This document shows positions 3,146 through 9,617 of a stretch of DNA of 46,375 nucleotides, piece by piece. Source of the stretch: Acidobacteriota bacterium (GTDB lineage: Bacteria > Acidobacteriota > Thermoanaerobaculia > UBA5066); assembly GCA_029567505.1 (NCBI GenBank), contig JAKPXO010000117.1, positions 1-46,375 on the forward strand, written 5' to 3'. The notes beneath the pieces are model-generated. The model had not been told where the DNA came from and ran no database searches. It was given only the letters and a program-made list of their open reading frames with translations. Position 1 is the stretch's first letter. Every line of letters begins with the position of its first letter. The translations under genes were made by a program, and so were the position numbers.

Positions 3146-4066
3146 CTACCAGAACCGCTTCAGCCAGTCGATCGTGACGTCGAGCGGGACCTTCGCGGCG
3201 AAGTCGAGCATGTAGGGGATCTTCTTCACGTCGTCCAGCGGGATGTTGACGTCGTTCGGGAACGTGGGCGCGAGGCGGTGGTACCGGTCGCCGAGGAGCT
3301 GGCTGCACTGGTAGTCGGCGATCCCGGCGGTTCCGTCGAGCATGAGGCTGATGAGCGGTCGGGCCCACTGAACGTATCCCCAGTCGAGGGTCGTGCCGGC
3401 GACGTACTGGAGATTGGTGCCCGTCCCGAGGGAGAGGAGCCGGACCTGGTTCATCGGCGGTGTCGGCGAGTAGCGTGCGTCCTGGGTCTGCGCGAGGGCG
3501 CACATGGAGGGGTTCCCGGCGTAGACCCCGCCATCCACGAAGCCGTCCACGGAAGGGAAGTAGGTTGGCGCGGCGCTCGTGTAGAGCCCGACCTTCCACG
3601 CCGGAAGGGCGCCGTCGGACCCCTTGCCCTGGAAGTTGTGGAAGAGCTTCGGCTTCCACGTTCGGTGGGCGGGATCTTCGTTGTCGAGGTCGAAGGCGGT
3701 CACGAGGACCTTCTTCCGGAGCTTCCCGAGCGTCGTGTCGCCGAACAGCCTCCGCAGCTCGCGGCGGAGCGGCCCGGTGTCGTAGTCCGCTCCCCGCAAC
3801 TGGCCGAGGTCGACCAGGTCGTCGAGCCAGGAGTCGTCGAAGATCTGCGGGCCCTTCTTCACGTACATGTCTCGCATCTCGGCGAGGCTGAGGCCGTTCG
3901 CGATCGCGAGCGCGAGGAGCCCGCCCGTCGACGTGCCCGAAACCAGGTCGGTCTTGTCGAGCAGGTTCTCCAGACCGGGCGTCGCCGCGAGCCGTTCGAG
4001 GAGGACGGTCGTGACGAGACCCCGGATCCCGCCTCCGTCCAGGGAGAGGACGCGGTATGTGGGCAT
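3146..4066 (-). CDS. Patatin-like phospholipase
   Basis: A patatin-family acyl hydrolase of 306 residues, expected to cleave fatty acids from phospholipids or related esters with a Ser-Asp dyad. The oxyanion loop DGGGIRG is at residues 10-16, the nucleophile elbow GTSTG at 44-48 (Ser46), and the catalytic Asp in VDGG at Asp178. The length is typical for a single-domain bacterial patatin. There is no signal peptide, so it acts in the cytosol or at the inner leaflet. The ribosome site GGAGG precedes the ATG at 4066. It is the last gene of a five-gene minus-strand cassette that also contains a second potential lipid-cleaving enzyme. Patatins are known effectors in several phage-defence systems (for example CapV in CBASS), but no cyclase is visible here. 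Confidence 0.9.
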   Translation of the reverse strand: MPTYRVLSLDGGGIRGLVTTVLLERLAATPGLENLLDKTDLVSGTSTGGLLALAIANGLSLAEMRDMYVKKGPQIFDDSWLDDLVDLGQLRGADYDTGPLRRELRRLFGDTTLGKLRKKVLVTAFDLDNEDPAHRTWKPKLFHNFQGKGSDGALPAWKVGLYTSAAPTYFPSVDGFVDGGVYAGNPSMCALAQTQDARYSPTPPMNQVRLLSLGTGTNLQYVAGTTLDWGYVQWARPLISLMLDGTAGIADYQCSQLLGDRYHRLAPTFPNDVNIPLDDVKKIPYMLDFAAKVPLDVTIDWLKRFW

Positions 4067-4112
4067 GCAGACCTCCGTTCCGGCGGCGTTGGGAAGGGCG
4101 GAAGGCCGGCGG

Positions 4113-4670
4113 TCAGGTGGCCAGCGGCCGCTGAAGGAACGGCGCTATGAGCCCGAGCAGGGTCGAGACGATCAGGACGGCGAGGCCCGACAGCGCCGAC
4201 GAGTACCAGGGGTAGGTACTGAACGGGGAGTTCGGAAGCGCGAAAGCCCAGGCCGAGTACGCGGCCGTAGCCGCGAACATCTCCCACACCGGCCAGGTGC
4301 CGATGCGGAGGGGAAGGGGCTTCTGAAGAGCCTTCAGCTTCGCCCCGTAGACGAGCCACACGATGACCGGCGTCGCGGCCAGGAAGATCCAGAACGCGAG
4401 CCAGTCGGCGCGCGTGACTTCGGACTCGCGATGGAGGGCGGCGAGAACCGCGACGTAGAGTGTGAGGACTTCGGTAGGGATGTACCCGAAGAGGACGTGG
4501 AGCGCCGTGTCCGTCGACCCGGAGGAGCCGACCGCGAGCCTGCCCGGGCCGGGCGACGGCTCGGCAGGCGCTGGTGGCGTCGCGGCTGCGCTGGCGATCT
4601 GGTCCAGGGTCCTCGGGAAGTCGTTGGCCGGGACTGTGTCCGGGCGGCGTGCGGCCGCGGCGTTCGCCAT
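4113..4670 (-). CDS. Four-helix membrane protein of unknown function
   Basis: This 185-residue protein has a Pro/Ala-rich, probably cytoplasmic N-terminal 60 residues. Four hydrophobic segments follow, around EVLTLYVAVLAALH, WLAFWIFLAATPVIVWLVY, WEMFAATAAYSAWAFAL and SGLAVLIVSTLLGLIAPF. The ribosome site before the ATG at 4670 is weak. It sits 46 bases upstream of the patatin gene on the same strand, so a membrane partner or anchor for the patatin is plausible. I do not recognise a named family. Confidence 0.65.
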   Translation of the reverse strand: MANAAAARRPDTVPANDFPRTLDQIASAAATPPAPAEPSPGPGRLAVGSSGSTDTALHVLFGYIPTEVLTLYVAVLAALHRESEVTRADWLAFWIFLAATPVIVWLVYGAKLKALQKPLPLRIGTWPVWEMFAATAAYSAWAFALPNSPFSTYPWYSSALSGLAVLIVSTLLGLIAPFLQRPLAT

Positions 4671-4848
4671 GGCATTGATGCTCAGGGGACGCCCCCTTCT
4701 GCGGCTATGGACCGGGCGAGACTTGAGCGCTGGAGCCCGGAGCCGCGTTCACGGAATCGGCGACGGCTCGAACGCCGCGAGGTGATCCGCGTGGCAGCAG
4801 GTGTCGTCGACGTCGTTCCGTCGGCGAGACGGTCGGCGCCACTGCCGC

Positions 4849-5886
4849 TCAAAGGGGGCCGGTGTTCCACGTCGTCTTCGAACCCTGGCGGTCCCAGAAG
4901 ACGAGGCGGATGACCGGCTGCGACGCGGCGCCTGCAGGTCTCTCGATCTCGATCGCGGTCACTCCGTTGCTGTAGAGACCGCAGCCGGTGTTGTAGTACC
5001 AGGCTCCCGGGGCGCCGCCGGCGTCGAGGGGTCCGATGTCTCGCCCCTTCTTCCGTTCGTCCTCCAGCTCGGCGCGCAGACCCTCGAGCTGCTTCAGGGT
5101 GGAGGACTTCCGGGCCGAGGATCGAGCGGGGGCCGGCGAGCGGGAGAGACGATCCTGCTCGTCACGGAGCTGTTCCGCCCGGGACCTCGACGCGAAGTAG
5201 GCTCGATGAGAATGCCCGCAGATGAGGACTCGCCCGTGCGTCTTCCCCCACGAGTAGAGCGTCCGCTCGAAGTCGCCCAGGACGTCCGAGGCGGTGGCGG
5301 CGGGGTTCGTCGGATGAAGGCCGAGTGCGTGGACGAAGGGCTCGAGCGATCCCCAGATGTGGACGAAGAACCTCGAGAACCAGGCACCGCGGTCGGAATC
5401 GAGAGTGCCCTGATGGCCGTGGACGAGGAGAGCCCGAGGCACGCGGTCGACGATGAGGCGAACGCCCTCGGGGAATCCGTCGCGGGTCGGGTCCGGGAGG
5501 GCCGCCGCGGGATCGCGGAGCTGGCGCCACTCGATGTCGTGATTGCCGAAGATGCGCAGGGCCGGCGTCGGAAAGGCGCGAAGGTCTTTGTAGACGGTAT
5601 CCCGGTACCGTCGCTCGACGGGGTCGAGGTCGAACTTCCAGAAGTCCTCGATGTCGCCGAGGAGAACGAGGCGCACGCCGTCGTCCCTGTAGCGGCGAAG
5701 GGCAGCCCGGAGTGCAGGCTCGTTGTCGCGGAAGTCATCGGAGGCCGTGCCGTCGCCGAGGTGGAGATCGGAGAGGATCGCCAGCTTGAGGCCGGCCTCG
5801 AGGTCGAGATCGATCGAATGGCCGTCTTTCGGCTCCCAGAGCGAGTTCAGTTGTGTCTCTGTCAGGGCCTGGTCGGACCGGCTCAT
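4849..5886 (-). CDS. Calcineurin-like metallophosphoesterase
   Basis: A cytosolic two-metal phosphoesterase of 345 residues. The ATG at 5886 has AGGAA upstream, and the longer in-frame extension has unnatural composition. Motifs appear in the family order: SDLHLGD (Asp40, His42), GDIEDF (Asp78), FGNHDIEW (Asn115, His116), then LVHGHQG and the closing CGHSH. Such enzymes hydrolyse phosphomonoesters or phosphodiesters, including nucleotides and lipid head groups (UDP-diacylglucosamine hydrolase LpxH has a similar layout). The substrate cannot be read from sequence. It lies between two membrane-protein genes in a cassette with two candidate phospholipases, so a phospholipid or second-messenger substrate is the natural guess. 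Confidence 0.85.
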   Translation of the reverse strand: MSRSDQALTETQLNSLWEPKDGHSIDLDLEAGLKLAILSDLHLGDGTASDDFRDNEPALRAALRRYRDDGVRLVLLGDIEDFWKFDLDPVERRYRDTVYKDLRAFPTPALRIFGNHDIEWRQLRDPAAALPDPTRDGFPEGVRLIVDRVPRALLVHGHQGTLDSDRGAWFSRFFVHIWGSLEPFVHALGLHPTNPAATASDVLGDFERTLYSWGKTHGRVLICGHSHRAYFASRSRAEQLRDEQDRLSRSPAPARSSARKSSTLKQLEGLRAELEDERKKGRDIGPLDAGGAPGAWYYNTGCGLYSNGVTAIEIERPAGAASQPVIRLVFWDRQGSKTTWNTGPL

Positions 5887-5983
5887 GAGGGCGTTCCTTT
5901 CTTCGGCGGGTGGCTTCGGCGAGCGGCCGGCCGAAAAGCGACTGGACGGAAACGAGGAAAGAGGACGAGGACGATGGGGAGGG

Positions 5984-6934
5984 TCACTCGCGAGACGGGC
6001 TCGGAGACCCGGCGGAGTCCCCGGTCTCGGCAGGAGGCGGCGATGGCGCGCCGGACGGCACGCTCGGGGACTCGTCCGGGCGCAGCTGCTTCTCGAACTG
6101 GCCGATGAGCTCGGGGATGAGCCGTTCGCTGAAGCCGGCGACGAGCGATGCGGCATAGAGCGCGTACGGGTTCGAGTCGAGGAGGTTCAGCACGAGCCCG
6201 GCTTTCTGAAGGAGGAGGAGGGCGGCGCCGAAGACCGCGCCGAAGAAGATCCTCGAGCCGCCGCCCGCGACGGCGTAGAAGCGTGAGGCGTATCGAGGGA
6301 TAGCGATCTTCCGGGACCTCTGCGAGATCGAGATCAATGCACCCAGGCTGCCGAAGTGGGCGGCGAGGAGGATGGATCGGCCGTTCGCCTCGATCGGGAG
6401 GAGCTGGCTCAGGAGGGAGACGGCGGAGATGGCGACGACGCTCAGAAGGGCGGACAGGAGATAGACGAATTGAAGCCCCTCGCGGCGCCGGAACCGGAGG
6501 AACTCGCGGGCGTCGCGGAAGAAGTCGGTCTTATCTCCCGCCGTACGCGTGTCGAGGGCCCGGGTGAGCCCGGAGGCGACGAGGCCGAAGGCCCGGCGTC
6601 GAATGCGCCTGCTGAAATGGTTCAGTCGAGCCTGGCAGACGAGGTCGCTCGCCTGAGCCATGGAGTCGTCGCCATCGATGCACGCGTGCTCGTCGAATTC
6701 ACACTGGAGCCGGTCCGCCGGATCCAGGAAGATGAAGCTCTTCTCGCTCCTGTAGAGGATCTCGGAGATCACGGCGCCGGTGGACCGGCAGACGTCCCCG
6801 ACCTTGTAGGACAGCCAGGAGGGCGAACGGGGACTCGGGCCCGGAGGAGTCGCCGGCTGCGACTCCGGGGCGGGGGCGCCCCTCGCGCCGTCGGCATCGC
6901 GAGGCCCGGTAGGACGGGAATCCGTTTCGGCCAT
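5984..6934 (-). CDS. Membrane protein with cytoplasmic N-terminal domain
   Basis: A 316-residue protein with a strong ribosome site (AGGAGGAG). A disordered Pro-rich start of about 40 residues precedes a soluble region of about 130 residues. After that come hydrophobic segments around FVYLLSALLSVVAISAVSLL, LLAAHFGSLGALISIS, RIFFGAVFGAALLLLQ and YALYAASLVAGFSERL. The pattern GSLGALIS...AGFSERLIPEL resembles a membrane module seen at the C-terminus of many uncharacterised bacterial proteins. It is the second gene of the cassette, directly after the protease-phospholipase fusion (60-base gap), and could be its membrane partner, sensor or target. Function unknown. Confidence 0.65.
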   Translation of the reverse strand: MAETDSRPTGPRDADGARGAPAPESQPATPPGPSPRSPSWLSYKVGDVCRSTGAVISEILYRSEKSFIFLDPADRLQCEFDEHACIDGDDSMAQASDLVCQARLNHFSRRIRRRAFGLVASGLTRALDTRTAGDKTDFFRDAREFLRFRRREGLQFVYLLSALLSVVAISAVSLLSQLLPIEANGRSILLAAHFGSLGALISISQRSRKIAIPRYASRFYAVAGGGSRIFFGAVFGAALLLLQKAGLVLNLLDSNPYALYAASLVAGFSERLIPELIGQFEKQLRPDESPSVPSGAPSPPPAETGDSAGSPSPSRE

Positions 6935-6994: not shown

Positions 6995-9211
6995 CTACGT
7001 CCCCTCGATCAGCTGCTTGAGCGTGACCGACGGGATGAACTCCTCGTCGGAGTAGAGCGTCACGAGGTCGTCCTTGTTGCGCGCCGTGAGCTTCGACTTG
7101 GGGATGGCGTCGCCGTTCCCTTCCGCCCAGGCGCTCTCCCAGAGCATCGCGAGGGTGCGGGCGCCCTCGACGCACGTGGCGATCGTGGCGTCGCCGAAGA
7201 GGTCCCAGAGGTCCTCGCCGCCGGCGAAGGCGTCGACGATCGCCTTCGGGGAGAGGTTCTCGAAGGTCTTCCGCATCAGGTCGACGGCGGCGAGGGTCGC
7301 CTCGCGCGCGCCCGACACGTTCGGCAGGGGAGCGGCGGCCGCGAGGCCGGCGTCGATCCCGGCGACGAGCGCCGCCGCGTTCGCGTTGAGCATGTCCGCC
7401 TCGTACGCGTGGTGGACGCCCGCGCCCCTCTTCCCGCCGCCGGGAAGCGGCTCGCCGTCGAAGAGGCTGGAGATGTGGAGCGGCTGGCACGCGTCGCCGA
7501 CGTAGTGGGAGAGGATGCCGGCCGCGCAGACGAAGCGATCGAGGTCTTTCGCCGCGACGGAAGCGACCATCTCCTCGTAGATGAGGCCGACGCGGAAGGG
7601 GAGGACGCCCTTGCTCCGGTCGTCGACGCGCTCGTAGTAGTCCTTCCAGACGGCGGGGTCGACGTTCGCCGGGTCCTCGATGCAGAGGTCGAGGAGCGTC
7701 TTCCCCGCGTGCGGCGCGTCGGGGAGCGGCTTGTCCATGTCGGCGAAGTGGGAGGGGTTGTCGGTCGCCCGGCGGCCGGGGTTGCCGGGGATCTTCCAGT
7801 AGTAGTCCGGGACGTCGGCGAGGGGAACGAAGTCCTTCTTCGAGAGGCCCGGGAAGGTCGACGGCTCGAGGCGCGAGGGCGGGTACGAGACCCGGTCGAC
7901 GTTCTTCCCCATGAGGGTCTTCAGTCGGCCCGTGACGAACCCGCAGGCGAAGGTCGCGATGGAGTAGTGCCCCAGCGCTCCCCAGTACTCCGGGAGGCCG
8001 ATGTTCCAGTCGCGGACGAGGTCGAGCTGCAGCTCGCGCAGGACCGTGCTGACGAACGTCGCGAGCGTGAAGCCGCGCGCCCGGCCGCCGGACGGGCCCT
8101 CCTCGATGACCTGCCCGCCCCACTGGAGGGCGATCGGGTAGAGGCCGCCCTGCCCCTTCGCATCGCGCGTGTCGAGGCACCAGAGGGTGCCCGAGTCGCC
8201 CGGGCGTGTTTCGCGGCCCGCGTCGGGCGCGATGAGGAGGTCGGAGACGTACTCGAACCCGCCGATGGCGTGGTAGCGGAAGAAGAGGGCGCAGATGCGC
8301 CCGGAGAGCGGCCCCGAGGCGGCGCCGTACCCCCGGACGGGCTTCTCGATGAGGTCGAGCGAGATCGTGTCGGGGTTCAGGTCGATCGGGGAGCCGAGCG
8401 GGCCGAGGCCGAGGACCTGGGTCGTGAACATCGACACGTCGTCGACCTTCACGAGGCCGACGTCGAGGTTGACGAAGACCCTGCTTCCCGGCCACGGATC
8501 GTAGATCTCCCCGAATCGTCTCTTCCCCAGGACGAGCGGGCTCGCCCGGCCGACCCTCACCTCCTTGCCGCCGAGAAGGGAGAAGACGGCGTCTCCCTCT
8601 TCGCCCGTCACATGGCGGTTCGTCAGGACGAAGGTCTGGCGGCCGTCGGTGACGAGGCAGCCGACGGATCCGACCCGGCTCGTCCCCTGCACCTTCGTCA
8701 GGAGCGGGTAGCCGCCGCCGACGAGCGGCTCGGGGAACCGCCGCGGAGCGGGCGCCTCCGGCCGGACGTCGCTCTTCCGGAGGAGGACGACGCACGTCGG
8801 GACGACCCGGCCGTCGGGGAGGTAGAGGCTCCGCGGGATGAACTGGTCCGGCTCGAGGCCGCGCCCCGCCTTCCCTCTCTTCCAGTCTTCGCGCTTGACC
8901 CACTCGTCGACGAAGACGAGGACGCACGGCCACGACCAGGCCTTCGTGACCGAGTTGAACAGGTCCCTCGCGTCCTTCTTCTCCTTTCGGCCCCTTGGCC
9001 GCGGGATCTCAGGCGGATGCGTCTCGTACCAGTCCCCCTTCCGGATCCTGTACCGGCCGATCGCCGTCGCCACGACGTGCGCCATGTTGCTCAGGTGGAC
9101 GTGGTAGGCCTCGCGCGCGTCGAGGAGGTCGCGCACGGAAAGCGAGCTGTAGCCCGGATGCGCGCGGAAGCGCGGAGGGAGGGAAGGGGAGGGCGCGGCG
9201 AGCTTGGGCAT
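6995..9211 (-). CDS. Trypsin-like protease fused to S1/P1 nuclease / zinc phospholipase C domain
   Basis: A 738-residue two-enzyme fusion; the start at 9211 has GAGGAG five bases upstream. Residues 180-390 form a trypsin-like fold with the triad His200 (LTNRH), Asp250 (NLDVGLVKVD) and Ser340 (PGDSGT). Residues 410-690 match the S1/P1 nuclease / phospholipase C zinc fold. This part begins WGALGH at 410-415, as mature P1 nuclease does. It continues with Asp466 (tentative), His488, the block HYVGDACQPLH (His569, Asp573, His579), and His600-x3-Glu604. The last pair uses Glu, as in Bacillus phospholipase C; P1 has Asp. In both families the free amino group of the first Trp binds zinc, yet here it is internal. 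There is no signal peptide. It is the first gene of a five-gene cassette. Substrate (nucleic acid or phospholipid) is undecided. Confidence 0.85.
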   Translation of the reverse strand: MPKLAAPSPSLPPRFRAHPGYSSLSVRDLLDAREAYHVHLSNMAHVVATAIGRYRIRKGDWYETHPPEIPRPRGRKEKKDARDLFNSVTKAWSWPCVLVFVDEWVKREDWKRGKAGRGLEPDQFIPRSLYLPDGRVVPTCVVLLRKSDVRPEAPAPRRFPEPLVGGGYPLLTKVQGTSRVGSVGCLVTDGRQTFVLTNRHVTGEEGDAVFSLLGGKEVRVGRASPLVLGKRRFGEIYDPWPGSRVFVNLDVGLVKVDDVSMFTTQVLGLGPLGSPIDLNPDTISLDLIEKPVRGYGAASGPLSGRICALFFRYHAIGGFEYVSDLLIAPDAGRETRPGDSGTLWCLDTRDAKGQGGLYPIALQWGGQVIEEGPSGGRARGFTLATFVSTVLRELQLDLVRDWNIGLPEYWGALGHYSIATFACGFVTGRLKTLMGKNVDRVSYPPSRLEPSTFPGLSKKDFVPLADVPDYYWKIPGNPGRRATDNPSHFADMDKPLPDAPHAGKTLLDLCIEDPANVDPAVWKDYYERVDDRSKGVLPFRVGLIYEEMVASVAAKDLDRFVCAAGILSHYVGDACQPLHISSLFDGEPLPGGGKRGAGVHHAYEADMLNANAAALVAGIDAGLAAAAPLPNVSGAREATLAAVDLMRKTFENLSPKAIVDAFAGGEDLWDLFGDATIATCVEGARTLAMLWESAWAEGNGDAIPKSKLTARNKDDLVTLYSDEEFIPSVTLKQLIEGT

Positions 9212-9617
9212 GGTGGCTCCTCGAAGACGAAGGGACCTGCGTTCCCGGGGGTCGGGGGCTTCCCCGTATTCCGTTATGTGTGAATGGGTTGCGTGGGAGC
9301 GGGCTCGCGCGCTGTCGACGCTCCGCGCCCTTCGGTGTCGCGTTCGCTCTCGTGCCGTCGTGTCTCGCCGCGCCTCCGAGTCGAAGTGGATGGACTTCTT
9401 CGGCGCGGTGCGAGCGGACGAGGACAACCCACCCGAGAGTTCCCCGGGTCGAGGCAACGGAATGGCGACCTTTCCTGAAACGAAGCTCCGCGAGAGGGTC
9501 GGAACTCCTACAGGACGGGAGCGGAAAAGTGCGTTCATCGGTTGTCGGGTCCGAGCCCGAATGCCCCCCCCGAGCGCCCTTCAGCGCAGTCGGCGTCGTG
9601 CCTGGAGCCCTCCGCAC
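9212..9617. other. Gene-free stretch upstream of the cassette
   Basis: About 400 bases carry no frame with protein-like composition and a ribosome site. It should hold the promoter of the minus-strand cassette. A slightly AT-richer patch near 9270-9290 is the only candidate region. No repeat or RNA gene was seen. Confidence 0.35.

Follow-up and report, generated by a model that had tools for sequence, protein, structure and literature searches.

Bacterial pro-nucleases can be switched on by site-specific cleavage, the protease being trypsin-like (as in the HamM and Avs1 systems) or of the caspase type (PMC12799240, Science 2025). HamM/HamA, the Avs1 nuclease–protease pairs and canu (PMC12799240) resemble the protein discussed here, as we interpret it, in the general idea of a protease-activated pro-nuclease. 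In HamM-type systems, however, the nuclease is of the metallo-beta-lactamase (MBL) fold and has a gene of its own, a loop inserted close to the active site gates it, and its partner protease carries a fused sensor (HamA, Avs1a or LmuA) (PMC12799240); in our case the candidate nuclease has the S1/P1 fold and shares one chain with the protease, and the block would be a buried N-terminal amino group. A lock of that sort is known from the broad-range PC-PLC of Listeria (PlcB), which has the same fold, and in which an extension preceding the metal-binding Trp1 blocks the enzyme until a protease removes it; but PlcB is a secreted phospholipase, and its propeptide of 26 residues is cut off by another enzyme, the metalloprotease Mpl (PMC10576769).

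Other relatives share one part of the architecture or the other. The S1/P1 nucleases (S1, P1, SmNuc1 and plant ENDO2/TBN1) have the fold, the WGxxGH start and the metal ligand set of the fusion, but they are secreted, and their Trp1 is exposed by signal peptidase. Plant NAL1 is like residues 20–406 in its fold (Z 36), its catalytic triad and its match to Pfam Nal1_C, but at 23–24% identity, and without a C-terminal hydrolase domain. Trypsin-like proteases do precede nucleases on one chain, in immunity-like loci, in LypC of Caulobacter (PMC13236601) and in the trypsin-NucA fusions described from comparative genomics (PMC7159879); these nucleases, though, are of the NucA/HNH type (read, for LypC, from its His/Asn catalytic pair), with no N-terminal metal ligand, and the nuclease residues of LypC are dispensable for lysis (PMC13236601).

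The initial annotation of the window (the whole stretch of DNA analysed, 46,375 nucleotides) had held that no system with this order of domains was described. As regards the single-chain order this stands, in that we found no paper on a protease–S1/P1 architecture in the open-access literature, but the claim has to be qualified by the HamM-type pro-nucleases and by a model in PADLOC-DB, PDLC03017 (‘trypsin-like’). Several family members are covered by this model over their full length (E down to 6.6e-127), and in that sense the protein is already on file as a candidate defence component; the window protein itself matches in two stretches, the best covering only residues 32–322 (E 1.4e-21). The name covers the protease alone, with no mention of a nuclease or of a zymogen; the system behind the model was not found in the open-access literature. 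The adjoining PADLOC model number is ‘TIR-TM’.

A NAL1-type protease joined to an S1/P1-fold hydrolase

The gene lies on the minus strand, with an ATG start codon at 9211 (Table 1). That a protease stands ahead of a P1/PLC-type domain is borne out by Pfam, by an AlphaFold2 (AF2) model and by about 50 relatives, and since the whole architecture is kept in these relatives a chance join is excluded. The residue numbers first assigned (H200, D250, S340, Y409, W410, H415, H488, H569, D573, H579, H600 and E604) are all correct on the translation. In the AF2 model, built on 38 family members (mean pLDDT 87), both domains fold; the pTM of 0.57 means that the mutual placement of the halves, and hence the reachability of the junction in cis, is not fixed by the model.

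Table 1. Features of the fusion gene, in coordinates of the window
Feature	Coordinates	Strand	Basis
Whole CDS (738 aa + stop), NAL1-like protease and S1/P1-PLC-fold domain on one chain	6995..9211	-	ORF translation, Pfam, AF2 model, fold comparison
Shine-Dalgarno-like GGAG, 5 bases upstream of the ATG	9217..9220	-	sequence inspection
Protease part, residues 20-406, NAL1-type (N-terminal region + chymotrypsin fold)	7994..9154	-	Pfam Nal1_C; NAL1 chains Z 36
His200, predicted catalytic triad	8612..8614	-	invariant in family
Asp250, predicted catalytic triad	8462..8464	-	invariant in family
Ser340, predicted nucleophile (GDSG)	8192..8194	-	invariant in family
Junction, residues 403-409, low-confidence (disordered) in model, ends Glu408-Tyr409	7985..8005	-	pLDDT
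Trp410, proposed new N-terminus; corresponds to residue 1 of mature P1 nuclease and PC-PLC	7982..7984	-	54/54 relatives; structural alignments
S1/P1-PLC-fold metal hydrolase domain, residues 410-701	7109..7984	-	Z 18.6 to S1 nuclease, 18.2 SmNuc1, 18.0 B. cereus PC-PLC

By its modelled fold, the first half (residues c. 20–406) is a NARROW LEAF 1 (NAL1)-type chymotrypsin-fold serine protease, with a complete predicted active-site triad. Sequence searches of the PDB with this half led to plant NARROW LEAF 1, NAL1 structures aligned with the model by VIA-align, and Pfam Nal1_C was matched at residues 254–399 (E 5e-8; 32.8 bits against a cut-off of 26.1). The trypsin-like domain of the initial annotation is thus intact and can be placed more specifically as NAL1-type: among the 54 distinct sequences of the final set (median pairwise identity 40%), the three triad residues are invariant wherever covered. 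A different architecture was seen at another locus in the same phylum (L020), where a NAL1-like protease occurs in a protein of 630 aa whose N-terminal region is charged and which probably contains a membrane segment.

The second half (residues 410–701) is, again from the model, of the S1 and P1 nuclease/zinc phospholipase C fold, and its predicted metal ligand set is complete. S1 nuclease aligned over 227 residues (rmsd 3.2, VIA-align). The Pfam S1-P1_nuclease model matches the window protein from residue 410, which is position 1 of the profile; the match (E 0.002, 18.5–21.4 bits) is below the cut-off of 29.5, and 31 of the 38 intact members (the window protein and 37 copies from the contig scan described below or an earlier search) match the same model, the best with E 1.4e-7. 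Nine positions (W410, H415, D469, H488, H569, D573, H579, H600 and E604) are invariant wherever covered in the 54 sequences. All of these except D469 had been proposed as zinc ligands from the outset, with Asp466 tentatively named in its place. One relative has Asn at 466, whereas the 53 sequences that extend over position 469 all have Asp there, and we therefore prefer D469 as the counterpart of Asp45 of P1.

In two secreted proteins of the same phylum (L005 and L008), S1/P1-like domains are apparently fused C-terminally to a long second domain, which, reading from the sequence, we take to resemble type I phosphodiesterase/alkaline phosphatase.

Is the payload a nuclease or a phospholipase?

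The two possibilities cannot be told apart by fold score, as S1 nuclease (Z 18.6) and SmNuc1 (Z 18.2) are matched about as well as the PC-PLCs of B. cereus (Z 18.0) and Listeria (Z 17.7). Zinc-dependent phospholipases C have a W-x12-H spacing and, in the choline-binding B. cereus enzyme, a choline-site glutamate (Glu4). The fusion protein does not have this spacing, but W410-x4-H415, correctly noted at the start as P1-like, and the position equivalent to Glu4 (residue 413) is mostly V, T, I or L in the family. Furthermore, when the PDB was searched with a profile of the C-terminal half, only nucleases of the S1/P1 type were matched, and no phospholipase C appeared down to E 10. On the sequence profile, the spacing and the missing choline-site Glu, a nuclease is favoured over a phospholipase. 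Thus it is unlikely, though deserving of serious attention, that the same zymogen logic controls a phospholipase C that attacks the membrane of its own cell, an idea which draws on the near tie in fold scores and on weak matches to Pfam Zn_dep_PLPC in 16 of the 38 members. The last metal ligand in P1 is Asp, and the Glu found here (E604) had at first been read as a mark of phospholipases; that reading has to be given up, because secreted bacterial S1/P1 relatives carry Glu too.

Trp410 as a probable locked N-terminus

Three lines of comparison bear on Trp410. First, the solved relatives begin there: in VIA alignments residue 410 of the model pairs with residue 21 of S1, residue 27 of SmNuc1 and residue 1 of PC-PLC from both B. 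cereus and Listeria, and in all four the first aligned residue is the mature N-terminus, just as had been suggested from the WG start of the domain. Secondly, in standalone S1/P1 relatives from the same phylum a signal peptide ends directly before the equivalent Trp, so that signal peptidase creates the free N-terminus; in the fusion, where the Trp is at 410, removal of a signal peptide would not expose it, and a check of 56 fusion N-termini showed no signal-peptide-like hydrophobic stretch in any of them. Thirdly, in Listeria PC-PLC, W1 must be exactly placed, a single residue added before it abolishes activity, and the pro-form is inactive until Mpl has removed the propeptide (PMC10576769). 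By homology with this last case, the uncut fusion should be inactive, and the hydrolase should stay off until the chain is cut before Trp410. We regard the locked N-terminal Trp410 as well supported.

Part of the family set was collected with the motif EYWG, which may have introduced a bias around the Trp. Among sequences recovered with an unrelated motif alone, WPCV, however, Trp410 is present in 30/30 and Tyr409 in 23/30, and the Trp is likewise kept in copies added later by profile search.

The Tyr409–Trp410 bond lies in the only internal segment predicted to be disordered: pLDDT falls below 50 only in the first 18 residues and at 403–410. The stretch from Leu394 to Trp410 has the same length, 17 residues, in all but two of 47 relatives (45 of 47). 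The simplest reading is that the fused protease itself makes the cut at 409–410. It is probable, taking everything together, that the protein is a cytoplasmic single-chain zymogen, made up of a NAL1-type protease and an S1/P1-fold hydrolase, in which a self-cut frees Trp410. The NAL1-type half would keep the trinuclear-zinc hydrolase (more likely a nuclease than a phospholipase C) off, for as long as the metal-binding amino group of Trp410 is held in a peptide bond; on some trigger, the protease of the same or a neighbouring chain would cut at or next to Tyr409–Trp410 in the flexible junction, and Trp410, now a free N-terminus, would complete the metal site and turn the hydrolase on, perhaps for cell suicide or defence. 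No sensor domain was found in the fusion protein.

What counts against self-cleavage is that the residue before the Trp is not fixed (Y in 42 sequences, T in seven, F and S in two each, and I in one of the 54). It might therefore be imagined that the zymogen is cut in trans by some other protease (of the host, or induced by phage), the NAL1 half having targets of its own or acting as a sensor that holds the hydrolase. There are precedents, in that Listeria PC-PLC is activated by the separate Mpl (PMC10576769) and the protease that cleaves HamM is a different polypeptide (PMC12799240). We nevertheless consider this improbable: in about 50 copies the halves have stayed together on one chain, the triad never varies and the junction hardly changes in length, and there is no second conserved protease gene adjoining.

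Residue 409 and the protease pocket were checked for co-variation. Of 364 protease columns, residue 366 is the one most associated with residue 409, being other than Gly in 9 of the 12 sequences that lack Tyr409 but in only one of the 42 that have it (Fisher 4e-7); it lies in a QWGG stretch that we equate with chymotrypsin 214–217. This column was picked post hoc and then checked on the tree, where four supported independent pairs were available, of which two to three agreed and none was opposed (p 0.25–0.5), and where residues 366 and 409 were not seen to change together on any single branch. The association is not independent of descent, and so we treat this apparent co-variation as suggestive only, a hint that is not used as proof.

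Lastly, it seems improbable that two enzymes simply share a chain, with a metal domain that works while Trp410 is peptide-bonded and a protease that has other substrates. The tight junction of constant length could be purely structural; but Trp410 is invariant, the junction is predicted to be disordered, and an extra residue before W1 kills the activity of Listeria PC-PLC (PMC10576769). The self-cut zymogen, for its part, makes simple predictions (a single bond, two key residues and clean on/off behaviour) and, if true, would explain why a bacterial NAL1-type protease has been joined to a second enzyme.

Distribution, probable transfer and disrupted copies

In 396 genomes of the same phylum, which were searched first, there were two more full-length fusions (43–44% identity), and a scan of genome contigs revealed the full-length fusion at 46 loci of many phyla. 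With later additions, some of them from a profile search of the kind proposed at the outset, there are about 50 further full or nearly full copies in more than ten phyla. Copies are found in Acidobacteria, Alpha- and Betaproteobacteria, Myxococcota, Ktedonobacter, Actinobacteria, Planctomycetes, Bacteroidetes, Ignavibacteria, Gemmatimonas, Verrucomicrobiales, Rokubacteria and Krumholzibacteriia, and are plasmid-borne in Sphingobium, Ensifer, Sinorhizobium, Neorhizobium and Cupriavidus; wherever annotation was seen, they are labelled hypothetical. Within orders or classes already known to contain a member, about 1–9% of genomes have the fusion, and the deep mixing of phyla on the tree points to horizontal transfer. 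A viral contig scan and phage records yielded no copy, and therefore this is not a typical phage gene. One genome of the class of Ktedonobacter (G1175) has two different fusion copies, on two contigs (L103 and L107).

Some copies are disrupted, either by changes of frame or, in Ktedonobacter racemifer, by c. 1.2 kb between the pieces. Three frame breaks (L071, L080 and L092) fall in one short region past the start of the hydrolase domain, near residues 480–505; the others are after residue 668 (L054), near residue 59 (L082) and near residue 130 (L094). No slippery site of the kind needed for programmed frameshifting was found, and so the broken copies look like decayed genes or assembly errors.

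Possible role

In the cytoplasm, such an enzyme would be expected to be toxic once active. An effector of defence or suicide would fit the sporadic and partly plasmid-borne spread, the several decayed copies and the end-to-end PADLOC model, and a defence role is a reasonable possibility, albeit one that we would not put at even odds. Against such a role stand the lack of a sensor domain and of a defence neighbourhood: no conserved neighbour gene was found around the fusion copies, and PADLOC and Pfam scans of the nearest neighbours gave scattered matches only. Still more tentatively, we suggest a suicide or defence effector encoded by one gene, widespread among bacteria and passed on horizontally, whose NAL1-type protease frees the N-terminal metal-binding Trp of an S1/P1-fold nuclease in its own chain; such unmasking of the N-terminus would be a new route to a self-activating pro-nuclease. 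Activation of pro-nucleases by proteolysis has only recently been recognized in bacterial immunity, and further enzyme classes have been predicted (PMC12799240); if our reading is true, the family adds another nuclease fold, another lock (a peptide bond that ties up the metal-binding N-terminus) and the absence of any separate activator gene.

The idea of a type VI secretion effector can be set aside, as no immunity gene follows the fusion and there are members in Chloroflexota and Actinobacteria, which to our knowledge are without type VI secretion.

Elsewhere in the genome from which the window comes, searches gave no match to Pfam SMODS and none to a standalone S1/P1 nuclease. Downstream of the fusion and on the same strand (3146–6934, minus) are genes for a 316-aa protein that matches no Pfam family, for a metallophosphoesterase, for a small protein that probably sits in the membrane and for a patatin-like phospholipase, the last of which matches the CBASS-type ‘Effector Phospholipase’ models of PADLOC (E 4e-63).
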